This document shows positions 3,758-14,593 of a stretch of 22,212 nt of DNA, piece after piece. Every line of letters starts with the position of its first letter. Positions within the stretch are counted from its first letter, which is position 1. The notes below the pieces were generated by a model. It worked only from the letters and a program-made list of their open reading frames with translations, ran no database searches and had not been told where the DNA came from. Made by a program: the position numbers and the translations under genes. Source of the stretch: a virus; the IMG/VR virus record IMGVR_UViG_3300008050_000365, positions 1 through 22,212 of that record. The stretch is one strand, 5' to 3'.

Positions 3758-4036
3758 TCAACCTTTCAATAATACAGGGTTGCCGTTTTCATCATATGCC
3801 CACCATACATTATATCCGTCGGCATTCTCGCGTGCCCAAGCCCTTGGGTCTAAGATTGCTGGATTTTCGGGCGCCACGTGGTCCGGGCCTCCCGGATCTC
3901 CAGGAAACCATTGGGGAACGAACCTTCCTGAATACGCGGGTCCCGGGTCCATAGGGCCCTGTTCATTCAGACCCTCCCGTCTACCGGCTTCGTATGCTTC
4001 TCTTAATAGTTTATCGTTTTTAATTTCATATGACAT
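3758..4036 (-). CDS. Small orphan with AYEAGRR leader; putative internal head protein
   Basis: I do not recognise a named family for this 92-residue protein. Residues 7-25 (NDKLLREAYEAGRREGLNE) are nearly identical to the leader of the gene at 14288-14593 and similar to one in the gene at 5225-5932. The leader looks helical and ends in L23-N24-E25 before Q26, the (L/I)xE pattern cleaved by T4-type prohead proteases. The rest is Gly/Pro-rich (GPMDPGPAYSG, FPGDPGGPD) and ends in an aromatic YNVWWAYDENGNPV stretch, similar in style to the end of the 14288 gene. Its DNA is markedly more GC-rich than its neighbours. The start has AAGGA upstream. I infer a capsid-targeted protein; a tail accessory role is also possible. 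Confidence 0.7.
   Translation of the reverse strand: MSYEIKNDKLLREAYEAGRREGLNEQGPMDPGPAYSGRFVPQWFPGDPGGPDHVAPENPAILDPRAWARENADGYNVWWAYDENGNPVLLKG
3977..4025 (-). repeat. Leader repeat, copy A
   Basis: This 49-base stretch matches 14528-14576 at 42 of 49 positions by my count, including 25 of the first 26. It encodes the NDKLLREAYEAGRR leader of the orphan at 3758-4036. Both copies lie at the 5' ends of otherwise largely dissimilar genes. Confidence 0.8.
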
Positions 4037-4081
4037 TATGGAAATCCTTCTTTATGTCTTTCTTATATGTATAATATAATT

Positions 4082-4603
4082 TTATTTAGTTGCTTCTTCA
4101 ATCTTTGCGATTTGCTGTTGAATGACTTCTGTTCGGTTCGGCCAAAGAATGTATTCTTTGTCTGGGTTCTTTAGAAGGTTATAAAGAAGTGGCATAATGA
4201 GTTTCTTTACATCGTCCATTTTCTCTGTGTATTCTTCTTCGAGTTCGCCTTTTCTTTCTTCGACCTCATCGATGATTGCTCGAATGTCTGAACCCTGCTG
4301 TGCAAACATTTGTGACAGTTCATCTGTTTCTAGTGATACAATCTGATCAATCTTTCCTTCGATTCTAGACAGGTCATCGTTTGGAACGGCGAAGTCTTCT
4401 GTTTCAGTATTCTGTAGAGCCACCAATACTGAACTGAGTTTGCTTTCAAGTTCGTCTATCTTTTCTACAATTACCGAAGAAACCTCAGAAGCAACTTCGG
4501 AAGCCACTTCTTGTGTCTCTGCTAGTCTTTCAGAGCCACCGTCGAGTTCGTCTGCATCTACTGCGGTGAATCCAAAATCATAATTTGAATAGTCTTCTGC
4601 CAT
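4082..4603 (-). CDS. Acidic coiled-coil protein of unknown function
   Basis: This protein of 173 residues has heptad-like, Glu-rich segments from about residue 28 to 135, including EKIDELESKLSSVLVAL and RIEGKIDQIVSLETDEL, which suggest a long coiled coil. The C-terminus (KKLIMPLLYNLLKNPDKEY followed by ILWPNR) is compact and less charged. I have the impression that this NPxKEYIxWPNR ending recurs in other phage proteins, but I cannot attach a function to it. The start is 4 bases after the gp3-like stop with AAAAGG upstream, so the two are probably cotranscribed from the late promoter at 5160-5167. A structural or assembly role is an inference from context only. Confidence 0.8.
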   Translation of the reverse strand: MAEDYSNYDFGFTAVDADELDGGSERLAETQEVASEVASEVSSVIVEKIDELESKLSSVLVALQNTETEDFAVPNDDLSRIEGKIDQIVSLETDELSQMFAQQGSDIRAIIDEVEERKGELEEEYTEKMDDVKKLIMPLLYNLLKNPDKEYILWPNRTEVIQQQIAKIEEATK

Positions 4604-4607
4604 TTGT

Positions 4608-5144
4608 TTATACCTTTTCGATTTCGTATGTGTCGAATGTTAGTGTCATGGTTGCTATCTGTGGTTCAGTTTCTGTTGGTGTAGTTAAGAATCTTAGTCC
4701 ACTGAGGTTTGTGGGAAAACAACTATTAAACTTCACACGAACATTCTCTCGCATTGCACTGTTTAGTAAAATGAGAGTTGCATCAGAATATTGGTCTGCG
4801 GGAGAAACTTGTTCTGTTGCATCTTCTATATTTACAATAGAACGCATCCAGTCATAGACTTCTCTCCAGTTAGCCAAATCTTCATCAACAATAAAACTAA
4901 CTTCCAATGATTCAAATGTCATTTTAGATGTTGGATGTTTCACATTGATGAATCTTGTTGGTTGTAGGATTTCACCGAAGTTCATGCCAGGGAGATTAAC
5001 TTCTTGGCAGAAAAACTGAACAGAAGGTAATCTCTGAATACCAAAAAAGAATCCAGTGTTCTGGATGTAGTTGGTATTAGATGGCTGACGCTGAAGAATA
5101 TCAACGGAGACATTTGGGGATAGACCTGGAAGTTCTGTTGTCAT
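4608..5144 (-). CDS. 3: Tail completion / sheath stabiliser protein, gp3-like
   Basis: This 178-residue protein has the tail-tube-like pattern of the tube-terminator family: an N-terminal NTNYIQNTGFFFGIQRLP, then FFCQEVNLPGMNFGEI, a VSFIVDEDLANWREVYDWM helix, and a C-terminal strand ATMTLTFDTYEI. In marine T4-like phages the gene after gp23 is usually annotated as gp3, which in T4 (176 residues) caps the tail tube. Size and position agree, but the sequence link to T4 gp3 itself is weak from memory, so another tube-fold protein remains possible. The start is set by AGGAGA 7 bases upstream. It has its own exact late promoter, TATAAATA, right upstream. Confidence 0.75.
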   Translation of the reverse strand: MTTELPGLSPNVSVDILQRQPSNTNYIQNTGFFFGIQRLPSVQFFCQEVNLPGMNFGEILQPTRFINVKHPTSKMTFESLEVSFIVDEDLANWREVYDWMRSIVNIEDATEQVSPADQYSDATLILLNSAMRENVRVKFNSCFPTNLSGLRFLTTPTETEPQIATMTLTFDTYEIEKV

Positions 5145-5159
5145 ATAGTTCTCCTATTG

Positions 5160-5167
5160 TATTTATA
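5160..5167 (-). promoter_or_regulatory. T4-type late promoter TATAAATA for gp3-like gene
   Basis: This is an exact TATAAATA on the minus strand, the sequence recognised by gp55-loaded RNA polymerase. It begins on the last base of the U-tract of the terminator just upstream. T4 late transcripts start about six bases beyond this box, which would be near 5154, inside the GGAGA ribosome binding site of the gene starting at 5144. Confidence 0.8.
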
Positions 5168-5197
5168 AAAAAACACTCCCCCGAAGGAGAGTGTTTT
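5167..5197 (-). terminator. Rho-independent terminator with UUCG loop
   Basis: The minus-strand transcript forms a 12-pair stem, AAAACACTCTCC with GGGGAGTGTTTT (one G-U pair), closed by a C(UUCG)G tetraloop and followed by seven U. It ends the transcript of the orphan gene at 5225-5932. Confidence 0.9.
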
Positions 5198-5224
5198 AAT
5201 AGTTCTATGATGACTCGCCGCTGA

Positions 5225-5932
5225 TTATACTCCGCCGCCGCCGCCGCCGCGTGGCGTCCCCATACCAGGGGGCGTTGGTTGATTCGAGTGTGCGCATCTC
5301 GGGCCACGACATGAATCCTTAAAGTATAGCCTCCACGGGCCCGGATCTAACCATTGCCACCAGGTGCCCTCACCGTCTTGCCGCGTCTCTCCATGTTCCC
5401 CGCGACCCCAGTCCTCGGGCCCGCCTGATCTTGGTGGTGCGGGCCACCCGCCTGGGCCAGGATTCGACGCGCTGGCCATGCGTCCTGGCATTGCATTCCC
5501 GATGCCCATACCAGAGCCTGGTGCCATACCAGATTGTTCATACATGCGCCGACCTTCAACAACATCTTCATCATCAGACTTCCATGAAGGCCTTGTCCAT
5601 GTCGCTCCTTTTTTCTTCATTGCGTCCCTTTTTGCTTGAATTGCTGGCGGAACAAAGTCGTCTGGCATCGCGTCCTGCATATACATACCTAATTCATCAC
5701 CCGCTGCAAGTGAGAATCGATTTGCTGGCCCTGTGGGCGGCGTCACCGGCGGGGCAGTTACAATTGGCCTGCCCCATCTATCAAATTGTTGTCCTTGACG
5801 ATTTGATGTATGTGCAGCAGGCCCACGTTCTAATAACCCTTGACGATATCCTTCTTGATATGCTTGTCTCTTTTTAAGTTCTCTCTTAGAACTCTCTGAA
5901 AGTTCATTCCAGTTATGTTTGCTGAAGGTCAT
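5225..5932 (-). CDS. GC-rich Gly/Pro-rich orphan with leader; putative internal head protein
   Basis: I do not recognise a family for this 235-residue protein. Residues 22-36 (RQAYQEGYRQGLLER) are a diverged form of the AYEAGRRxGLxE leader of two other small proteins here, ending in L33-L34-E35, a possible prohead-protease site. The middle has a charged stretch (AIQAKRDAMKKKGATWTRP). The C-terminal half is rich in Gly, Pro, Met and Trp (GTWWQWLDPGPWRLYF) and ends in six glycines. GC content is clearly above the neighbours, especially 5350-5520. AAGGAGA precedes the start. The gene has its own late promoter and terminator and sits next to gp23, which suggests strong late expression. Long overlapping frames on the opposite strand are shadows of its composition. 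Confidence 0.75.
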   Translation of the reverse strand: MTFSKHNWNELSESSKRELKKRQAYQEGYRQGLLERGPAAHTSNRQGQQFDRWGRPIVTAPPVTPPTGPANRFSLAAGDELGMYMQDAMPDDFVPPAIQAKRDAMKKKGATWTRPSWKSDDEDVVEGRRMYEQSGMAPGSGMGIGNAMPGRMASASNPGPGGWPAPPRSGGPEDWGRGEHGETRQDGEGTWWQWLDPGPWRLYFKDSCRGPRCAHSNQPTPPGMGTPRGGGGGGV

Positions 5933-5963
5933 ATTAATCTCCTTGGGAATTTGTTTGTTACCT

Positions 5964-5971
5964 TATTTATA
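5964..5971 (-). promoter_or_regulatory. T4-type late promoter TATAAATA for orphan at 5225-5932
   Basis: This is an exact TATAAATA on the minus strand between the gp23 terminator and the orphan gene. The expected transcript start is near 5958, giving a leader of about 26 bases that contains AAGGAGA before ATG 5932. Confidence 0.8.
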
Positions 5972-5995
5972 AGAAAAGAAAATTAGACCCCAAAG

Positions 5996-6022
5996 AAAAA
6001 GGGGAGTCCCGAAAGACTCCCC
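5996..6022 (-). terminator. Rho-independent terminator after gp23
   Basis: The minus-strand transcript has an 8-pair perfect stem, GGGGAGTC with GACTCCCC, extended by a U-G pair around a UUCG loop and followed by TTTTTCTTT. It lies 43 bases past the gp23 stop codon and would set the 3' end of the capsid-gene message. Confidence 0.9.
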
Positions 6023-6064
6023 GATTTCAATCATCACTATTGTGATGGTTATGGTTAATTCACA

Positions 6065-7531
6065 TCATGGGTATGATGTTCCAGCAGCAGCCGCACCACC
6101 ATGTAGTCCGTCAATACGGAAGATACGGAAGTATTGGTTTGCTCGCTTTGCGGCCGCCGAAGTTGGTTCCGAGTCAGCATAGGCGTTATTGGCACCCGCG
6201 AATGGGTTCATTACCATTCCGTAACGAGTCTTGAACCCGATACGAGGTTGGAAGTCATTCTCACCAACGGCGCGTACCATCTGTAGTGGTACATACGGGC
6301 AGTAGAACAGTCCTGCATCGTAAGGCGAAGAACCTCTGTAACCCACACAAGCATAGTTAGTACCTGCTGAGTATGGGTCGATGTAAACTTTCATCTTACC
6401 ACCAATGGTTCCGACAAAGGTGTTACCAGTGTCATCTACTTCATTGATTGCTTGGTCACCACCAGAGATTTGAAGGAAACCACTCATTGCGAGTGCGGAA
6501 GCAACATCGGCAGTTACGATAACGAAGTTACCCTTACCGCGACGAGTATCCTTAGCAATTTGGTTTGCTTCTCGTTCCAGTTGGAACTGAAGTCCACGGA
6601 AGCGTTCTGCACTCCATCGTCCATCAGAGTCTCTGTCTAAGTCGTAAATACCACCCTGTTCTGTTGGGAAGGTTGCTGTGGCAGCAGTACCGCCGACACC
6701 CATTCCTGTACCGGCTCCACCCTTGAAGTAGAGGTCAGTCTGTTGGGCACCGAGTTTAGCGATTCGGTAGATAGTACGGATGACTTCACGGTTGATTTCT
6801 GCAAGGACTTCGGTGCTAAGAATGTTAGCAAGTTCAGTCTCTGCGTCTAGTCCGTGAACTGCTTTCAAGTCCTGAGCAAGTTCTGAAGTGTACTCTGCTT
6901 TGAGGGCACGAGTCTTTGCTTCAACAGCAGTTCGTTCGATGCTGAATGCCATTTCTGGGAATACCCAAGCACCAGAGGCACCAAGAACTTCTGCTTGACT
7001 TGTTGCCATACCACCGGAAACACCGATGATGAAGTCTGCTGAGATACCAGTGGACAAACCAGCGGTCTGAGCATAACTTGAACCTGCAACACCGAATGGG
7101 TCGCCAAGTGTGATACCCGCAACATATCCGCTAGTTACACCTGCTGAGTGTTGCATTCCTGGCTCATCGAAGAGTGCTTCGGTTCCACCTTGAGTTGCAT
7201 ACTTAGCACGAAGTGCGAAGATAAGTCCAGTAGGTCCAGTCATTGGCTGAACACCACATACGTCGTAAGCCATTAGGTTAGGCATTGCACGACGAACGAG
7301 TGAGATGAGGATTGGGTCGAAACCCTTGATGTTACCCTCACCTTCGTTTGGTGACATACCTGCACCAACGAGGTTGTTTGCTTGCTCCTGTAGAGCCTTC
7401 TCTTGGTTCTCTAAAAGAACGGTTGTGACATTCTTTCTATAAGAGTCCTTAATCGCAGGAAGGCTTGGATGCTCAATGATGGGCTTCCATTTTTCTGCTA
7501 GGAACTGGGCTGCTGTGTCTAGATTGTTCAT
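6065..7531 (-). CDS. 23: Major capsid protein gp23
   Basis: This is the main shell protein of the T4-type head, assembled as a prohead and then trimmed by the gp21 protease. It is 488 residues against 521 in T4. The N-terminal region (PIIEHPSLPAIKDSYRKNV, LLENQEKALQEQ) and the body (GFDPILISLVRRAMPNLMAYD, QPMTGPTGLIFALRAKY) are the hallmark gp23 segments used for environmental surveys. A likely propeptide cleavage site is L47-Q48-E49 before Q50; T4 cuts after E65. The start at 7531 has AGGAGAA just upstream. A near-consensus late promoter precedes it and a strong terminator follows, so it has its own message at high level. Confidence 0.97.
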   Translation of the reverse strand: MNNLDTAAQFLAEKWKPIIEHPSLPAIKDSYRKNVTTVLLENQEKALQEQANNLVGAGMSPNEGEGNIKGFDPILISLVRRAMPNLMAYDVCGVQPMTGPTGLIFALRAKYATQGGTEALFDEPGMQHSAGVTSGYVAGITLGDPFGVAGSSYAQTAGLSTGISADFIIGVSGGMATSQAEVLGASGAWVFPEMAFSIERTAVEAKTRALKAEYTSELAQDLKAVHGLDAETELANILSTEVLAEINREVIRTIYRIAKLGAQQTDLYFKGGAGTGMGVGGTAATATFPTEQGGIYDLDRDSDGRWSAERFRGLQFQLEREANQIAKDTRRGKGNFVIVTADVASALAMSGFLQISGGDQAINEVDDTGNTFVGTIGGKMKVYIDPYSAGTNYACVGYRGSSPYDAGLFYCPYVPLQMVRAVGENDFQPRIGFKTRYGMVMNPFAGANNAYADSEPTSAAAKRANQYFRIFRIDGLHGGAAAAGTSYP

Positions 7532-7579
7532 CCGTTTATTCTCCTGTTAACTTTCTAATGTTTTTAAAACTGAGTTCTT

Positions 7580-7587
7580 AATTTATA
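7580..7587 (-). promoter_or_regulatory. Probable late promoter for gp23 (TATAAATT)
   Basis: The minus strand reads TATAAATT, seven of eight bases of the T4 late consensus, in the 71-base gap between gp22 and gp23. The start would fall near 7574, giving a leader of about 43 bases. T4 gene 23 also has its own late promoter. Confidence 0.55.
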
Positions 7588-7602
7588 TAGTAAATTTAAA
7601 AT

Positions 7603-8724
7603 TTACGACTGTGTGTTGTTTTCTGCACTATCGGCAAGTCTACCAACACTGTTGAAGTACGCATTCATACGAGGGGTCATATTATCAAGTGATCGTCCAC
7701 CCACCGAATGTGCTTCTTCGAATGATTCGTTTAGAAGTGTTGTAACACCTCTTGCTGAACTATTGAAGTAACTTTCCTTGATTGTTGCTAGTTTATCAGA
7801 GAATTCTGATTCACTGCTATATTCAAGTCCTCTTGCGAGCGAACGGAACTTCTCAACTTCAGTGGCAGCCAATCCGTGACAGGCTGCTTCGAAGATAGCA
7901 TCGCAGTTAGATTCTTGCTTTCCTTTGGAAAGGTTTACATTCTCTTGAATGCTATGGTTCAATTTACCAGTCAGTTTTTCAACCTTATCAGTAAGTGCAT
8001 CAACCAAGTCTACCTTTGAGGGTGGTACTTCAATGTAATGATTTTCGAAGAGGTCTCGAAGGCCACCCATGAAGGATTCAGTTACTTCGTTTTGAATGCC
8101 TCTATCAATTGCGAGTTCGTTTGTTGACATCCATTCATTGACAACATAGTTCATGTAGTCGTCAAGTTTATTTGCCATTGTATTCTTGGCACTTGAAACT
8201 TCTTCTACGAAGACATCTCTCGATTGACGAACCAATTCTGCTTGAATTTCTTCAACTCTTGAATTTACGGCTGCTTCGAAGATAGCGGCTGCTTTTCTCT
8301 TGAATGAATCTGTTAGTTCTTCACCACTGAAGAGTGCTTGAAGATGCTCTAGTTTTGCGCCTTTGTTCTTTTGTTTATCTTGAAGACTCTTCTTTGCATT
8401 GCCTTTTGTTTTTACTGGTCGAGCAAATTTTACACCCTTACCGTCAGCAGTTTCAGAACCCTTACCAGTCGCATCTTCTTCGTCATCTTCCATGAGAGAA
8501 AATTGGGATGCTTTGTAGAGTTCTCTACCAATTGCTTCTGATAAAGATGCATCGTCTTCGAAAGAAGCAAGTCTATGCATTACACCATTGATATACTCTG
8601 GTGTTGCTCCCATTTCAGATAGTTCGGAAATTACGGATTGAACCTCTCGACCTAAATTGGTCCGAGTTTCTCGGTTTGCTCTTTCAACTAAGTTGCGAGC
8701 GGAATTTATTACACTGTTTGCCAT
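7603..8724 (-). CDS. 22: Prohead scaffold core protein gp22
   Basis: This is the scaffold around which the prohead shell forms; T4 gp21 chops it to small peptides during maturation. It is 373 residues, longer than the 269 of T4. The sequence is charged and helical, with few aromatic residues. About eleven (L/I)xE patterns are scattered along it (for example LSEA, IFEA twice, IKES, LNES), as expected of a protease substrate. Segments such as LEHLQALFSGEELTDSF and AAAIFEAAVNSRVEEIQAEL are typical of marine gp22 proteins as I recall them. The position between gp21 and gp23 is canonical. GGAGAGT lies upstream of the start at 8724. Confidence 0.9.
   Translation of the reverse strand: MANSVINSARNLVERANRETRTNLGREVQSVISELSEMGATPEYINGVMHRLASFEDDASLSEAIGRELYKASQFSLMEDDEEDATGKGSETADGKGVKFARPVKTKGNAKKSLQDKQKNKGAKLEHLQALFSGEELTDSFKRKAAAIFEAAVNSRVEEIQAELVRQSRDVFVEEVSSAKNTMANKLDDYMNYVVNEWMSTNELAIDRGIQNEVTESFMGGLRDLFENHYIEVPPSKVDLVDALTDKVEKLTGKLNHSIQENVNLSKGKQESNCDAIFEAACHGLAATEVEKFRSLARGLEYSSESEFSDKLATIKESYFNSSARGVTTLLNESFEEAHSVGGRSLDNMTPRMNAYFNSVGRLADSAENNTQS
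7882..7899 (-). repeat. 18-base exact repeat in gp22, copy 1
   Basis: This is identical to 8269-8286. On the minus strand it encodes AIFEAA, a possible gp21 cleavage site (IFE before A). The two copies lie about 390 bases apart within gp22. Confidence 0.8.
8269..8286 (-). repeat. 18-base exact repeat in gp22, copy 2
   Basis: This is identical to 7882-7899 and also encodes AIFEAA. Confidence 0.8.
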
Positions 8725-8763
8725 TTGGAGACTCTCCTTAAATGTCTTTTTTTATGTCAGTAC

Positions 8764-8771
8764 TGTTTATA
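8764..8771 (-). promoter_or_regulatory. Possible late promoter for gp22 (TATAAACA)
   Basis: The minus strand reads TATAAACA, seven of eight bases of the late consensus, in the 58-base gap upstream of gp22. The start would be near 8758, leaving a leader of about 34 bases with GGAGAG before ATG 8724. It is weaker evidence than the exact boxes. Confidence 0.4.
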
Positions 8772-8782
8772 TCTATGTTTTT

Positions 8783-9427
8783 TTATAATTTGGACAAGAA
8801 ATCAGCGAAGCACCATTCTGTTACTTCATCAATCATTCCTTGCGGCGCAGTTTTAATGATTTTCTTGTATTTATCTACATTGGATTCTTTAATTATACCA
8901 TTATCCCATACCCATTCTTTGCCTTCCATGATACCATCTACAAATGCATTTGGTGCTGATGGGTCGGCCACGATGTCTACGGCTGCAAGCATAAAGTCGT
9001 CTGAAACAAACTTCGAACCATTCTTCTCTTCAAGACTTCCCATACCACGGGATGAAACGCCAAGTTGTGCGCCTTCGTCAAGAAGATTCTTTACAATCTT
9101 ACCCATTGGAGTATCCATGATTTTGGCTTTACCAATAACATCATCATTGTTCTCATATAAATCTGTGATGATGTGGGATACTCTTTCGAGGTTGACTGTT
9201 GGTCCTTCTGGATGTCCAAGTTCACCAAATGCTCTTTTACCAGAAACGAAGTTGTTATTATAGTTTTTAACTTCATCCATGAGAATTTTCTTTGGATATA
9301 CTCTGCCGTTTCTGTTCTTTTGCTCTGCTTGCATAAACACACCACTAATGTAGTAGTTGGCAGGACCACCTTCTACATCTTCTTTGATGAGTTTAATGTC
9401 TTCAGTTGTTTCTGTAATGAGTTTCAT
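8783..9427 (-). CDS. 21: Prohead core protease gp21
   Basis: This is the serine protease of the T4 prohead; it sits in the core, cuts after (L/I)xE and matures gp22, gp23 and internal proteins. It is 214 residues against 212 in T4. Conserved blocks are ISGVFMQAEQKNRNGRVYP, GELGHPEGPTVNLERVSHI (candidate catalytic histidines H72/H85) and QLGVSSRGMG (S125/S126 as nucleophile region), with VDIVADPSAPNAF after them. The N-terminus MKLITET contains ITE before T and resembles the MELITE leader of T4 Alt, suggesting self-processing. It starts in a TAATG overlap with the upstream small gene. Confidence 0.95.
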   Translation of the reverse strand: MKLITETTEDIKLIKEDVEGGPANYYISGVFMQAEQKNRNGRVYPKKILMDEVKNYNNNFVSGKRAFGELGHPEGPTVNLERVSHIITDLYENNDDVIGKAKIMDTPMGKIVKNLLDEGAQLGVSSRGMGSLEEKNGSKFVSDDFMLAAVDIVADPSAPNAFVDGIMEGKEWVWDNGIIKESNVDKYKKIIKTAPQGMIDEVTEWCFADFLSKL

Positions 9428-9786
9428 TATGGTGCGCCTCCTCCGCCGAATCCTCCGTCACCGGGATACAGTGTCGGTCTACCTTGTTTGATTGGTTGCT
9501 GGTTGCTGGTTGATTGGGAATTTCCTGGCTCTCCTGGCGGTGGAACTTGCTGTGCCCATTGTCCATCAACGAACACATAATAATTCCATGTCCAGTATCC
9601 ATCGGGATATGCACCGTCATAGTAAACATTAGCATAATAGTTAGCATCCCACACTTCCTGTCCACCGGGATACCCGGCCGGCATCGAAGGCGGTGGTGGT
9701 ATAGGAGGTAACTCCTCGTTTAATCTCATTGGATTAGCACAACTCTCTATAAGATTTCTATATGATTTTGTGTTTAATCGTTTCAT
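9427..9786 (-). CDS. Small Tyr/Pro/Gly-rich protein; putative prohead core or internal protein
   Basis: This is a 119-residue protein of no family I recognise. The N-terminus (SYRNLIESC, then RLNEE) holds two (L/I)xE sites, at residues 12-14 and 22-24, matching the position of capsid-targeting leaders in T4 internal proteins. The remainder is poly-Pro (PPIPPPPSMPAGYPGG), then a Tyr/Trp-rich repeat-like stretch (YYANVYYDGAYPDGYWTW) and a Gly-rich end. It overlaps both neighbours by TAATG junctions, in the place where T4 has the small prohead core proteins gp67/gp68. A core or packaged protein is an inference from location and leader. Confidence 0.75.
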   Translation of the reverse strand: MKRLNTKSYRNLIESCANPMRLNEELPPIPPPPSMPAGYPGGQEVWDANYYANVYYDGAYPDGYWTWNYYVFVDGQWAQQVPPPGEPGNSQSTSNQQPIKQGRPTLYPGDGGFGGGGAP

Positions 9787-10133
9787 TATTGTCCGCCTGC
9801 TCCCATTGGTGCAGCCCCTGCTCCTGGCATACCACCTGGACCACCTTCTGGTTTTGGTTTATTTTCTGATTGTAATAATTCTTTTGCAAAGTATACCATT
9901 TCAGGATAAAACTTTTTGTAAAGTTCATCTAAAATTCTTGAGTCAGCAGAACCTTCTTGTTGCATCTGTTGAATAAACACATCCACTTTTGGATAACCTT
10001 TAATCTTATCGAAGAATTTATCATCAATGCTAGGCGCAGGACCCCCGCCTGGTCCACCCATGCCTGGCATACCGGGCATACCGGGTGGCGGCCCTTGCTC
10101 AATTATCAAGTTGTGCTTTTCGAATAGGTTCAT
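9786..10133 (-). CDS. Small collagen-like Gly/Pro protein; putative prohead core protein
   Basis: This 115-residue protein has an N-terminal leader EKHNLIIEQG with I10-I11-E12 before Q13, a possible gp21 site. A short collagen-like Gly-Pro-Met tract (GPPPGMPGMPGMGGPGGG, residues 14-31) follows, then a charged helical centre (about 36-92, SIDDKFFDKIKGYPKVDVF and onward), and a second Gly/Ala/Pro/Met tail. It starts in an ATGA overlap with the upstream gene and ends in a TAATG overlap with the next. No known domain is evident. Position and leader suggest a prohead core or internal head role, analogous to gp67/gp68 of T4 but not demonstrably homologous. Confidence 0.75.
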   Translation of the reverse strand: MNLFEKHNLIIEQGPPPGMPGMPGMGGPGGGPAPSIDDKFFDKIKGYPKVDVFIQQMQQEGSADSRILDELYKKFYPEMVYFAKELLQSENKPKPEGGPGGMPGAGAAPMGAGGQ

Positions 10134-10429
10134 CTTTTCTTCATGGCCTTAGTGATGGCCTTTCTTTTTTTATGAAGGAATCGGTCACTAGAATCTACAT
10201 CACCATCGTTGTCGATGTCTTTATCTTTTCTGTCTTTATGCTTACCCTTTAATGCTTTTTTGTTTACGGGGTCCAACTCTTCGTCATCTTCGCCGTAGAG
10301 CATTTCTTTCTTCCTCTCAATAAAATAATTCATCTTATCATAAAGAGAAGACTCTAGGACTTCTCTCGTTTCAGAGAGGTTTCCACTCATGATGTTTGTG
10401 AAAATTTTGTTTACTTTTCTGCTTGCCAT
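10130..10429 (-). CDS. Small prohead-region protein with EF-hand-like loop
   Basis: This 99-residue, highly charged protein has an N-terminal helix pair (MASRKVNKIFTNIMSGNLSE, then EVLESSLYDKMNYFIERKKEM) resembling small prohead-core proteins of marine T4-like phages as I recall them. Residues 71-82 (DIDNDGDVDSSD) have acidic residues at positions 1, 3, 5 and 12 and Gly at 6 of a canonical EF-hand/dockerin calcium loop. The C-terminus is a basic stretch (HKKRKAITKAMKKR). LSE (18-20) is a possible gp21 site. AGGAGAG precedes the start, and the stop overlaps the next ATG. It may correspond to gp68 by position. Confidence 0.75.
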   Translation of the reverse strand: MASRKVNKIFTNIMSGNLSETREVLESSLYDKMNYFIERKKEMLYGEDDEELDPVNKKALKGKHKDRKDKDIDNDGDVDSSDRFLHKKRKAITKAMKKR

Positions 10430-10432
10430 TTT

Positions 10433-12127
10433 TTATCTCTCCTGAGCGAATCTTGCTATTTTTACAAATGAACCGGAATCTGATGTGAGCATTTCTCTCA
10501 TCTTTGTTTGATTTTCCTCATTTAATTCATCATGTAGGTTGATTAAGTTTTCAGAAATATCAGGTGTTATATGGATGATACTTCCGTTGATATTTATATC
10601 AACTGGCATTTTGGAAGTATTTGATGTCTGTAATTGTTGGATAACGGATTCTTTCAATCCAAGTGCTTTTACCCAATGGTCAACACTTGCACTGATGATT
10701 CTGCCGCTGATGTTGCCATAAGAGATATCACTCTTATCACGAACATTTGCTTTAGGAGCAACGACATTTAGAACCTTCTTGCGAAGTTCGTTATCAATCT
10801 TATCTGCTCTTACCATAATGAAACGAGTCTTACCACCCTTTGACTGGACAGCAAGTTTACCTGTTGTATATTTCTTTACTGCTTGCTTGACTTGTTTTGC
10901 AATTGCGGCGGTGTTGTCTTCATCCAGTTGATAGGATTCTTTTACGATTTTACCATGATTCTTTTTCATATATTTCTTTATGGCCCTTACGGTCAACCCT
11001 GCACCACTACTCCTCAGATAATCAATATCGATTACTTTATTTCCACTAACTGTTCCAGTAGCAACACCTGCATTTGCGATATCCTTAGCAAACTGATTTG
11101 CCTGTTTATTGGAAGGGAATTGATAGGACGCATTTGCCTCATCCAGTTCAACAGATTCTTTACGGATAAATTTCTTTAGTACCTGACCAACCTTTGCATC
11201 GGGGTCAAGAACAATTGTTCCACCTCGATGTCTTGAGATTTCTTTGTGTGCATTGTCTCTTGTAAGTTTCGCCGCAACAACTTTACCTTTTTTATCTGTA
11301 ATTACATAAACATCTCTTCGTAATTCATCCAGTTGAACAGATTCAGCAATATCCCAGCCTTTTCTTTCATAACTCTTCAAATCTTTTCTGTCGATCACAA
11401 TCACTTTACCCTTTTTGTCTACTACCATAACTTCTTTCTTTGGGTCTTTTAATTGTCTTCCGCCCAGACCCAACTTCTGCCGCTGCGCCTTCTTAAGCCA
11501 CTTGGGTTTGTTGTGGTGACGGACTGTAACTTCATCCAGATAGGATTCCTTTGCATAGAGAGGATTTCCCTTTGCATCTTCCTTTGCAACAAGTTTATTG
11601 TTCTTTGCAAATTGCATGGCTTTTTGATGACTGACATGACTACCGTGGAATGCGAACATCTTGATGCGACCACGCTTTGGGTCACTGATGGTTGCCATTA
11701 ATACCTTGTCTTGCTTACCAGAACCCATCGACATCTTAGGTCTTTCAACTACAACAAATCTAGTTGTGGGACCAAGAACAGATTGCACATTCATTAGAAT
11801 CTTTGCCTTGCCGCTCTCGATGTGTTTCTTGATTTCGGGACTTGCTGGAACATCAAAATCTCTAAATGATTTTGCTTCGTTTAGATGATATCCCTTATCG
11901 TCGCAATGTTCGCATCCTTCACCGTCACACTTGGGACATGTGACCTTTTTCTTTTCAGCACATTTGCAATCTGCACATCCACAATCTTCTAATAAAGTAG
12001 AGGAAATATTTGCTCTGCGAGCATCAATACTATTAATGACCTTTTCGGCCAAGATATGAGAAAAGGTATTGTACATGTCTCCGATGTTATTATCAGTAGA
12101 TTCGTTGATTAATTTTTTATAATCCAT
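10433..12127 (-). CDS. Multi-module virion protein with repeated ESxxLDE linkers; putative prohead polyprotein
   Basis: This 564-residue protein lies between portal gp20 and the prohead genes. Its N-terminus, MDYKKLINES, resembles the Y-x-x-(F/L)-I-x-E-(A/S) leader of T4 internal proteins. A Cys-rich zinc-finger-like segment follows (49-75, with CPKCDGEG as in DnaJ). Then come blocks separated by LNE84 and by AKESYLDE199, AESVQLDE268, RKESVELDE330 and VKESYQLDE403. The blocks between them are about 115, 69, 62 and 73 residues, followed by a C-terminal part of about 160, and most are Lys/Arg-rich. Every boundary ends in LxE, the cleavage pattern of T4-type prohead proteases. I infer a polyprotein cut by gp21 inside the head into several small basic, perhaps DNA-binding, proteins. 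It starts in a TGATG overlap with gp20. An uncut structural protein is the alternative. Confidence 0.85.
   Translation of the reverse strand: MDYKKLINESTDNNIGDMYNTFSHILAEKVINSIDARRANISSTLLEDCGCADCKCAEKKKVTCPKCDGEGCEHCDDKGYHLNEAKSFRDFDVPASPEIKKHIESGKAKILMNVQSVLGPTTRFVVVERPKMSMGSGKQDKVLMATISDPKRGRIKMFAFHGSHVSHQKAMQFAKNNKLVAKEDAKGNPLYAKESYLDEVTVRHHNKPKWLKKAQRQKLGLGGRQLKDPKKEVMVVDKKGKVIVIDRKDLKSYERKGWDIAESVQLDELRRDVYVITDKKGKVVAAKLTRDNAHKEISRHRGGTIVLDPDAKVGQVLKKFIRKESVELDEANASYQFPSNKQANQFAKDIANAGVATGTVSGNKVIDIDYLRSSGAGLTVRAIKKYMKKNHGKIVKESYQLDEDNTAAIAKQVKQAVKKYTTGKLAVQSKGGKTRFIMVRADKIDNELRKKVLNVVAPKANVRDKSDISYGNISGRIISASVDHWVKALGLKESVIQQLQTSNTSKMPVDININGSIIHITPDISENLINLHDELNEENQTKMREMLTSDSGSFVKIARFAQER
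10591..10598 (-). promoter_or_regulatory. Possible internal late promoter (exact TATAAATA)
   Basis: An exact TATAAATA lies in the 3' part of the polyprotein-like gene, within a 7-base inverted repeat GTTGATA-TTTA-TATCAAC. It would start transcription near 10585, upstream of the small prohead genes and gp21. A chance match inside AT-rich coding DNA is quite possible. Confidence 0.35.
10921..10945 (-). repeat. Linker repeat 4 (KESYQLDE)
   Basis: This is one of four short interspersed copies with plus-strand core CATCCAG(TTGA)TAGGATTC or CATCCAGTTsAACAGATTC. It encodes the KESYQLDE linker that separates two modules of the polyprotein-like gene. Confidence 0.75.
11140..11164 (-). repeat. Linker repeat 3 (KESVELDE)
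   Basis: The plus-strand sequence CATCCAGTTCAACAGATTC is nearly identical to the copy at 11326 and encodes the KESVELDE linker. Confidence 0.75.
11326..11347 (-). repeat. Linker repeat 2 (AESVQLDE)
   Basis: The plus-strand sequence CATCCAGTTGAACAGATTC differs from the copy at 11140 by one base over this core and encodes the AESVQLDE linker. Confidence 0.75.
11533..11554 (-). repeat. Linker repeat 1 (KESYLDE)
   Basis: The plus-strand sequence CATCCAGATAGGATTCC is the shortest of the four copies, lacking one codon compared with the others, and encodes the KESYLDE linker. Confidence 0.7.
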
Positions 12128-13635
12128 CAGAATTCTTCTTCCTCTTCTTTGTAAAGACCACTCTTCTTTTCTTTAGATATCTGCTTATCCATATCCTTGA
12201 TTTCTGTTTCATTAAACTTAAGAATGTTCTTTCTCACCCAATCAATGGAATAGTACTTACCTATGTATTCATTTACCTCTCTTAGAATCTCCATTCTTTC
12301 TTTTAAGATTTCTGATTCTTTGAGTTCTGTGAAGTATGAGTCCGTAGCAAAGTCAAAATACACATTTTGTGCAATGCTTTGCCAGTCATCTTTGGTGATG
12401 ATATTCTTAAGAATCAATTGAGTTTTGAGTAAATCTAAGAACAAGTCACTAAATTTTGATCTCAATCTCTGAATGAATTTGAAGAATCGAATTTCATCAC
12501 GGGTAATTTCAGCACTTCTTCCCATATTGAAACCATTTTCTGCTTCCAGCCTACTGATAGGAACATTCAAAGCACGGAACAGTTTCTTCTGGAAGTAATC
12601 AACATCTTCCATTTCGCCTAAATTTTGTCCACCATCAAGAGTAGTGATTTCAGTTCCTCTACCACCTTCTCTTCTTGGCAACCAATAATCTTCAAGCATG
12701 TTCATGTGCTTTTTGTCGTCTTTGATTTCACCAGTGGATGCATCATAGACAAGTTTATTTCTATATTGATTCATCAATTGCTTGAGATATTGTTCGGCTT
12801 TATTCTTTGGAAGGTTGCCGACATCAACATAAAATACTCTTCGTTCTGGTGCCCGGGAGATTCTGTAAATAACAACAGAGTCTTCAATCATTCTTAATTG
12901 ATTAAGAGGACGAATGGCCTTATGTAGATATCCGATTACCATTTTCTTAGAACCATCAAACAATCCAGAAGTAATATAAGAAATAGCATCCGGTGATATC
13001 TTTACACCCTTTTCTACAAATTGGGGTGTGTATGTTTTGTTCTTGGGAGTTGCGTCATACATGTAAAATTCATTTGCCGATTTTACAATCTCAACTCCAT
13101 CTTTGTTTTTTTCTTTTTTAATTTCACGAATTTTCTTAATTCGAGTTGGATCAATTGACCGGAGTTCAATAATTCCCTTTTTCTTGTTATTTTCATCTAC
13201 AATTTTATGGAAATATAGTCTACCATCAATAAACCATTTTCTAAAGACATCAATACCTTTGTTGTTAAAATCCAACAAAGTCAGAATCTCTTTAAATTCA
13301 GTATTAATTTTATCTTTAATAGAATCACTCTGTTCGTAATGATCCATATTAAGTTTTACGGGTGTTCTATATTCATCAAAAACAACACCTTCATTTACAA
13401 TATCTTGAACCGCGAGTTCAACCTCCGGCGACAATATCATAGTTCTATAATGATTAATAAATCCCGAATCAGATTTTTGATCACCTTCTAGGTCAATGTA
13501 TGAACCATAGAATGCGCCCGATGCAACTTGAGTCGCACCGTCATCGAAATCTGGTGCGACAAAAGATTGTGCTTTGGGATCTGGTGCGTCGGGACTCTTT
13601 TTTCTTCCGAAATTAAATCCAAATAACTCTGGCAT
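12127..13635 (-). CDS. 20: Portal vertex protein gp20
   Basis: The dodecameric portal through which DNA enters and leaves the head; it also starts prohead assembly and docks the terminase. It is 502 residues against 524 in T4. Typical segments are GAFYGSYIDLEGDQKSDSGF, FINHYRTMILSPEVELAVQD, GRLYFHKIVDENNKKKGIIE, LRSIDPTRIKKIREI and the DYWLPRREGGRGTEITTLDG loop, with PISRLEAENGFNMGRSAEI after it. These are the conserved gp20 regions used as marker sequences. The C-terminus is a run of Lys and Glu. The start has AGGA about 9 bases upstream, and the stop overlaps the next gene by TGATG. Confidence 0.97.
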   Translation of the reverse strand: MPELFGFNFGRKKSPDAPDPKAQSFVAPDFDDGATQVASGAFYGSYIDLEGDQKSDSGFINHYRTMILSPEVELAVQDIVNEGVVFDEYRTPVKLNMDHYEQSDSIKDKINTEFKEILTLLDFNNKGIDVFRKWFIDGRLYFHKIVDENNKKKGIIELRSIDPTRIKKIREIKKEKNKDGVEIVKSANEFYMYDATPKNKTYTPQFVEKGVKISPDAISYITSGLFDGSKKMVIGYLHKAIRPLNQLRMIEDSVVIYRISRAPERRVFYVDVGNLPKNKAEQYLKQLMNQYRNKLVYDASTGEIKDDKKHMNMLEDYWLPRREGGRGTEITTLDGGQNLGEMEDVDYFQKKLFRALNVPISRLEAENGFNMGRSAEITRDEIRFFKFIQRLRSKFSDLFLDLLKTQLILKNIITKDDWQSIAQNVYFDFATDSYFTELKESEILKERMEILREVNEYIGKYYSIDWVRKNILKFNETEIKDMDKQISKEKKSGLYKEEEEEF

Positions 13636-13665
13636 AATAATAAATCCTCATATTGTAGTTTCCTA

Positions 13666-14256
13666 TTATCCTACTTCACCGACTCCGCCGAGATCAACGG
13701 ACTCAATAAGGTTGGCTTCAGGGGCGTCACTCGCTAAGAAGTAGGAGTAACTCATCGTCACTGTGAACTCAGAAAGAGTATCACTTGCATCAGAATCAAG
13801 TGCCATATCACCAATCACGGTTGGGAAACAATGGAAAAATGAATAGGTCTTGATTGGGTCATTTTGTCTATCTAGTTGGTCAACACTCCATGTTGGAAAC
13901 AGTCCACCCGCAAGGAAACTTCCTTGTGTTAGGTCATGTGCTTGTTCTGCAACATTTCCAATAGTGGAATTGATTGCTTCCATCCATCTTTCGAACTTGG
14001 TTCGAAGATTGAATTCGCTGTCACTGATGACGGTCAATGACCAGTCATCGAAGGTTCTGTTTCCAGGCAACTTGAGTTGTCGTCCACGGAAAGGAACTAA
14101 AATTGTACTAAGGTTAGAAGCGGGAAGCGATGCAGTACGAACAAGAAAACTGGCTGCTTGGTCAGTCCCCTCGGGGCCGATTGGACCGTTTACACGGAAC
14201 AGGTTAGGTCGAACGCCGCCGCTTTTTAGATTGTTTTTGAAATCGTTAATGTTCAT
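13666..14256 (-). CDS. 19: Tail tube protein gp19
   Basis: The tube subunit stacks as hexamers inside the contractile sheath and forms the DNA channel. It is 196 residues against 163 in T4. The pattern NLFRVNGPIG, TASLPASNLSTILVPFRGRQ, the LPGNRTFDDWSLTVISDSEF strand block and the FERWMEAIN helix is characteristic of the T4-type tube fold. A C-terminal strand follows (FTVTMSYSYF) with a short Gly-rich tail. AGGAAG precedes the start. It lies between a small orphan and the portal gene, in the usual 18-19-20 order. Confidence 0.93.
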   Translation of the reverse strand: MNINDFKNNLKSGGVRPNLFRVNGPIGPEGTDQAASFLVRTASLPASNLSTILVPFRGRQLKLPGNRTFDDWSLTVISDSEFNLRTKFERWMEAINSTIGNVAEQAHDLTQGSFLAGGLFPTWSVDQLDRQNDPIKTYSFFHCFPTVIGDMALDSDASDTLSEFTVTMSYSYFLASDAPEANLIESVDLGGVGEVG

Positions 14257-14287
14257 TCTTGTGCTTCCTGTTTAGTGTTGTGTCTTA

Positions 14288-14593
14288 TCATCCAAGGGGA
14301 ACATATTGCCAGTAGCAACTATTGGGGCAAGTCCATATCCAATATCCAATTACATTTCCATCTGCATCATATACAGCAATATTATGCCCATCATGCGTGC
14401 CGTGGAAGTCGGGTTGCTTAAAAGGGGTTACATACGGATAATCGCCTGGCTCATTGAGCCACCCTTTCGGATTATATTCCATACCGCCCGGGCCCTGTGG
14501 TGCTTGCTTTTGCTCCCGCAGGCCTTGCCGTCTACCTGCTTCGTATGCTTCTCGAAGAAGTTTGTCGTTTCTAATTGGTGAGTTGTGATTCAT
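14288..14593 (-). CDS. Small orphan with AYEAGRR leader; putative internal head protein
   Basis: This is a 101-residue protein with the start set at ATG 14593, which has AAGGA 8 bases upstream; a longer frame to 14647 would run into the end of gp18. Residues 9-27 (NDKLLREAYEAGRRQGLRE) are nearly identical to the leader of the gene at 3758-4036. L25-R26-E27 before Q28 fits a prohead-protease site. The body is Gly/Pro-rich (APQGPGGMEY, GWLNEPGDYP) and ends in NIAVYDADGNVIGYWIW with two Cys and several Trp/Tyr, comparable to the end of the 3758 gene. It is an unusual insert between sheath and tube genes. I infer a packaged protein. Confidence 0.75.
   Translation of the reverse strand: MNHNSPIRNDKLLREAYEAGRRQGLREQKQAPQGPGGMEYNPKGWLNEPGDYPYVTPFKQPDFHGTHDGHNIAVYDADGNVIGYWIWTCPNSCYWQYVPLG
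14528..14576 (-). repeat. Leader repeat, copy B
   Basis: This matches 3977-4025 at 42 of 49 positions by my count and encodes the NDKLLREAYEAGRR leader of the orphan at 14288-14593. Confidence 0.8.

Follow-up and report, generated by a model that had tools for sequence, protein, structure and literature searches.

Candidate capsid-targeting leader on mostly unrelated proteins of an uncultured marine T4-like phage group

A short N-terminal leader of the form AYxxG...[AG]LxE is shared by proteins with mostly unrelated bodies in a T4-like myovirus and its relatives, and probably acts as a capsid-targeting propeptide that docks on the prohead core and is removed by gp21, the body being kept in the head. 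This interpretation, drawn from comparative sequence analysis, is well supported because conservation falls away at LxE/Q (the slash marks the predicted cut), the bodies are unrelated and the same motif is present in gp23, and also because the leader co-varies with lineage and T4-type decamers occur in the same records. The sequence-only reading of this DNA had proposed that the leader targets proteins to the capsid as in T4 and has an LxE of the gp21 type as its end: the leader and its end stand on the comparative evidence just listed, but likeness to T4 in leader sequence and in basic cargo was not found.

Leader genes in the window

The window, a stretch of 22,212 bases, comes from a T4-like myovirus and has all its structural genes on the minus strand. 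The gene order is gp16, gp17, gp18, leader gene A, gp19, gp20, four smaller or unassigned genes, gp21, gp22, gp23, leader gene B, a gp19-like gene, 4082-4603, leader gene C and uvsY, so that the leader genes lie beside a gp20-gp21-gp22-gp23 head block, the head module of T4-like phages. The genes most relevant here are those for the major capsid protein gp23 (6065-7531; phrog_138, E=6e-146), the prohead protease gp21, presumed to be the processing enzyme (8783-9427; phrog_207, E=5.9e-79), and the scaffold gp22, to which the leaders are presumed, by analogy with T4, to dock within the core (7603-8724; phrog_237, E=8.8e-71), all on the minus strand. The nearest cultured gp23 is 55% identical to that of the window.

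Three minus-strand genes carry the leader at the places where it had been noticed. Gene A (14288-14593, 101 aa, containing NDKLLREAYEAGRRQGLREQ) lies between the genes for the gp18 sheath and the gp19 tube; its leader comprises residues 1-27 (14513-14593), ending in EAYEAGRRQGLRE, with a predicted cut between E27 and Q. Gene B (5225-5932, 235 aa) is directly downstream of gp23, has AYQEGYRQGLLER at residues 24-36, and would lose residues 1-35 (5828-5932), which end in AYQEGYRQGLLE before R. Gene C (3758-4036, 92 aa, containing NDKLLREAYEAGRREGLNEQ) is just upstream of uvsY, the same place as L004:353-1228, and its leader would be residues 1-25 (3962-4036), ending in AYEAGRREGLNE before Q. An HMM of the leader, made from 24 rows that all came from outside the window, matched exactly these three among the window ORFs at E<1 (36.0, 30.3 and 16.9 bits), the top score among 20,200 shuffled ORFs being 7.9 bits. 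The bodies differ, as had been claimed: in BLASTP, A and C match in the leader (E=1e-12) and share a faint YD.(D/N)GN stretch, and the match of B to A falls mainly within the leader (E=0.004). None of the three genes had a PHROGs or Pfam family below E=0.05.

Short N-terminal stretches ending in LxE are also found in two neighboring minus-strand genes that did not figure in the sequence-only reading. The gp67-position protein (9786-10133) begins with MNLFEKHNLIIE followed by QGPPPG, and its relatives have MNLFEKYNLISEQ, MNYGHINFITEQ and MNTGQIDFIIEQ. The Gly/Pro/aromatic protein at 9427-9786 has a different N-terminus, ending RLNE/E, and has a short aromatic stretch in common with leader proteins of L015 and L018; with only 17-24 aligned residues, it is not claimed that those are the same protein under another leader. 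A second gp19-like tube gene (4608-5144; phrog_45) occupies the place annotated as gp3 in cultured relatives.

Conserved leaders and differing bodies

Conservation was examined in 27 leader ORFs from 17 records, a set anchored on the LxE motif and aligned on its final E. Omitted were L003 (on the L010 contig), L016 and L017 (each almost a copy of L018), a copy within a 546-aa ORF, the G010 gene at 64504-65211 and the partial match L122. Columns -14 to +1 hold 1.8-4.4 bits (4.39 for the E, 2.75 at +1) and those from +2 onward at most 0.67, so that conservation ends at LxE/Q. The leader ends in LxE in 26 of the 27 and in MxE in one, in a set anchored on that motif, which agrees with the (L/I)xE form of gp21 sites. 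The following (P1') residue is Q in 20, R in three, T in two, and N and M in one each, window gene B being among the seven without Q. The predicted cut falls after 21-52 residues. An A at -11, a G at -7 and an A or G at -3 are nearly fixed and would lie on one face of a helix. For gene A, a low-confidence AlphaFold2 model gave a helix at residues 8-29, disorder at 30-51 and a small beta part at 55-99 (mean pLDDT 62.5, 14 sequences).

An all-against-all comparison of the bodies (351 pairs) found three clear relations (L007 with window gene B, 48% over 194 aa; L015b with L018; and L110a with L110b) and three additional short matches of 17-24 aa. A conserved short N-terminus on unrelated bodies is the layout of T4 capsid-targeting sequences. 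A second leader-like copy (REAWKAGFDAGRESLSEQ) is present within the body of L005:7329-8111.

In the mechanism envisaged, the leader would fold into an amphipathic helix, and a conserved face of small residues (A-xxx-G-xxx-[A/G]) would dock small proteins of unrelated sequence onto the core of the prohead, probably onto gp22, while the head is assembled. The gp21 protease would then cut behind LxE, in most cases ahead of Q, leaving the body in the head. By this reading the leader proteins would be packaged internal proteins; their ejection into the host with the DNA is the least certain part of the explanation.

The core proteins gp67 and gp68 of T4 are cut by gp21 and degraded. It is possible, though unlikely, that the leader proteins are prohead core (scaffold) parts of that kind, built in through the same helix, then cut up and lost at maturation rather than delivered as cargo. 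Such a fate would fit the further LxE sites or second leader-like copy in the bodies of L004, L005, L015b, L007 and window gene B, the Gly/Pro-rich stretch after the leader, which is predicted to be disordered, and the gp67-position gene, which has the same layout and lies at the same genome place as its T4 counterpart. Unlike conserved core genes, however, the leader bodies are almost wholly different from one genome to the next, and some have parts that look foldable or functional (the small beta part, DxDxDG loops in genes marked by [LIM]xEQ, and hydrophobic stretches).

The cut motif in gp23 and at other N-termini

Between LLENQE and the mature domain, the gp23 proteins of the leader clade have a single [LI]xE, reading L[QN]E/Q or IQE/Q, which is the predicted cut site and which the sequence-only reading did not mention; in the window, the gp23 alignment places it at L47-Q-E49/Q50 (7382-7393, minus strand). 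In L016-L019 the motif is ALNEQ, which is also how leaders most often end, and L012 and L013 have the gp23 motif and no leader. The gp23 propeptide of T4 has 65 residues (PMC9026906, in excerpt) and ends in LTE/A in the T4 sequence. In the gp23 alignment the T4 and clade sites do not share a column and are linked by motif and segment, and LTE/A-like sites occur at that segment in many other clades.

The same preference is seen more widely when residues following [LIM]xE are counted in the first 60 positions and compared with the rest of the proteins (genes being taken by a simple greedy choice of ORFs). Four leader-clade records together gave 48 N-terminal [LIM]xEQ against 9.8 expected (G004, 21/3.8; G010, 13/2.3; G011, 7/2.3; G015, 7/1.4), and two outgroup records gave 7 against 5.4 (G027, 3/2.2; G013, 4/3.2). 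Q is the leading excess residue in each of the four and in neither outgroup. Intermediate values were found for G012, without the leader (8/2.8), and G016, with it (5/1.8). About 10 of the 48 are the chance expectation, and some of the occurrences look like chance.

That the leader is an uncut docking helix, anchoring proteins to another part of the virion such as the neck, tail tube or outer shell, seems quite improbable. Leader genes do adjoin sheath, tube and gp3-position genes, and a helix of the form A-xxx-G-xxx-A could plausibly make a stable contact, but conservation ends exactly at LxE/Q. That motif also occurs in the gp23 of the leader clade, where N-terminal [LIM]xEQ shows its strongest excess.

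Leaders of the T4 type are found in the same records. The ipIII-type decamer M..[YF]..[FIYLM][LIMV].E begins 8 of 361 genes from G004, G010, G011, G015 and G016, where shuffling predicts 0.15, and one of 320 genes in the outgroups G012, G027 and G013. Examples are MKDYRTFLSE/Q and MKQYNTFLSE/Q, and the bearers include a zeta-toxin-like kinase (PF06414) and a DUF6267 protein. At L107:5179-6006, a zeta-toxin-like kinase (PF06414, E=9.7e-7) adjoins a leader gene and has its own T4-type start, MLSFSNYLGE. A cytidylyltransferase of the cultured cyanophage S-RIM14 (L167:3950-5128) starts with the T4-type decamer MKKFSTFISE/A, the only such start among 21 neighboring genes examined in four phages.

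Two large proteins (L102:14862-16502 and L110:3521-4855) contain a stretch resembling the N-terminal arm of gp23, EQAxNxVGxGMSPVVGxEGEIKG, with 24 of 43 residues identical to gp23 (E=5e-9); in gp23 this stretch lies just after the predicted cut site. It is possibly a capsid-arm mimic or a second gp21 site.

Distribution, known systems and cargo

A search of genomes for the leader and a table of its neighbors, both suggested in the sequence-only reading, showed that it recurs at particular places of the structural block in close relatives. Among the best 80 of 238 confirmed IMG/VR loci selected by gp23, the leader is present in 14 of 18 whose gp23 has 72% identity or more (a count that includes L005) and in none of the 62 more distant ones. 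The four close loci without it are L012, L013, L020 and L021, and the contigs of the last two stop within 750 bases after gp23. An iterated leader model run on 82 sources (the window plus L004-L084, with L001, L002 and L003 omitted as duplicates) gave 21 forward matches at E<1 in 15 sources, or 16 with L005, which was admitted for its position and for its E=0.0015 when whole records were searched; reversed ORFs of the same sources gave none. Whole-record searches found a match at E<=1 in 10 of 14 and 8 of 13 records. In most records the leader gene is directly after gp23; other places are the gp18/gp19 gap (window, L006), the gap that follows gp20 (L006) and the positions ahead of the gp67-position gene (L015) and of uvsY (window, L004). 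The 118.5 kb G004 record has copies far from the head block as well, at 9044 and 16098. The second of these lies within an ORF of 546 aa, at an internal ATG (codon 410) that has AAGGAG in front of it; a separate gene in L110 corresponds to this stretch.

Tandem arrangements also exist, with three leader genes in a row in L104 and two each in L008 and L110. These, and the similarity of leader DNA in some paralogues (between A and C, 13 of 54 bases differ over the last 18 leader codons), might suggest a DNA-level repeat spread as a recombination patch without function at the protein level, a disfavored and very improbable explanation given that the reading frame is kept in 27 of 27 leader ORFs and that changes between the closest paralogues are mostly silent (silent/changed codons: A-C, 7/2; L104a-b, 8/3), although the ratio is reversed in L104b-c (2/5) and L110a-b (4/7). 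Among same-genome paralogues, mostly silent change is seen in the closest pairs (A-C, L104a-b and L008a-b) and not in distant ones; for A and C, this indicates a conserved protein rather than a fresh DNA copy.

The degenerate DNA pattern A[YF]xAGxxxALNEQ occurs 11 times, in 10 stretches, among 2.9 million viral contigs (IMG/VR). Nine of these matches begin no later than residue 36 of an ORF, and an over-specified version of the pattern gave no match there. A scan of 84,980 genomes of bacteria and archaea gave 13 stretches, most from one family of internal matches; none was the N-terminal leader of a plausible gene, one being at residue 36 of a 52-aa ORF. No convincing relative was found by tblastn of proteins A and C and the 26-aa leader against 50,697 phage records, no related locus with protein C, and no leader at E<1 in the head regions of the cultured marine T4-like phages P-HM2, Melnitz-3, Mosig and S-PM2.

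In T4, internal proteins that are otherwise diverse bear targeting sequences (PMC3012670, PMC9026906), and the targeted proteins are basic, with targeting positions 4, 7, 8 and 10 (PMC9026906). Like those of IPI, IPII, IPIII and the Alt propeptide, the leader described here is short, N-terminal, common to unrelated small proteins and ends in a gp21-type LxE, and its phage is T4-like and encodes gp21, gp22 and gp23. Unlike T4 ipIII (MKTYQEFIAE), it is longer and of different sequence, without the aromatic residues at 4 and 7, aliphatic residue at 8 and E at 10 of the T4 decamer; P1' is A in T4 and Q here, the cargo is Gly/Pro-rich and lysine-poor, and there are more candidate proteins per genome. 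Since its sequence is unlike that of T4 and the cargo is not basic, the leader is regarded as an analogue of the T4 targeting sequence rather than as a demonstrated homologue. The giant phage SPN3US offers another parallel in gp245, a prohead protease that cuts off N-terminal propeptides of 20 and 24 residues and prefers a particular P1' residue (Ser), but the motif differs and the excerpted text describes no shared leader family (PMC10052503). A search of open-access papers on capsid targeting, on proteins inside the head and on T4-like or marine phages showed nothing about this leader among the entries listed, which falls short of establishing its absence from print. The arrangement looks like the known T4 layout of one leader on diverse cargo, with a different label and many more cargo candidates in an uncultured marine group.

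The capsid-targeting reading can tentatively be extended to an expanded head-loading platform. Interchangeable leader types (the AYxxG helix, the T4-type decamer and others), mostly ending in LxE/Q to match a gp21 with its P1' preference shifted to Q, may bring at least a dozen rapidly changing proteins from each genome into the head for injection into the host, among them aromatic, calcium-loop, membrane-like and enzyme-like ones. If the capsid-targeting reading is right, the rule of an N-terminal leader plus an LxE/Q matched to gp23 would allow sequence alone to reveal which proteins an uncultured marine phage group is likely to inject, comparison with a second targeting signal unlike that of T4 would show what the core recognizes, and a new tag would be available for loading proteins into phage heads.

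The [LIM]xEQ-marked genes number 44 of 287 in G004, G010, G011 and G015. Their content of G+P is 0.20, versus 0.10 in the rest (p=1.5e-14), and their median lysine fraction is 0.035, versus 0.066 in other G004 genes; in the leader bodies the lysine fraction is 0.00-0.08, and these are not the basic, lysine-rich proteins that T4 packages. By gene count, a broad aromatic pattern was not enriched (9/44 marked vs 32/243 others, p=0.15), and a strict one ([WYF].[NDGK]G.W-like) was found in 6/44 vs 1/243. The strict motif recurs in unrelated bodies (L005, L009, L015, L018, L019, L104, L102:9035-9367 and window 9427-9786). Hydrophobic runs were not enriched (2/44 vs 17/243), and a search for TATAAATA was not significant (3 sites vs 1.21 expected, with as many in 12 of 100 shuffles).

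Several individual genes are of interest. A calcium-loop-like DxDxDG after residue 40 is present in 9/44 marked genes (one of them gp23) and 12/243 others, the loci including L102:7503-8135, L102:9468-10457, L102:12901-13944, L104:4-528, L128:11676-12512, L128:15494-16105 and L128:17533-18468. Two paralogous leader proteins at L110:4821-5932 have long, hydrophobic, glycine-rich stretches and are possibly membrane-inserting cargo. A 913-aa ORF (L128:12496-15237) with nucleotidyltransferase-like, DUF192 and HNH parts has MKSYREIQANIREQ at its N-terminus, and a trypsin-like secreted lipoprotein, as judged by eye, is encoded at L103:13581-14399 beside a leader-like gene.
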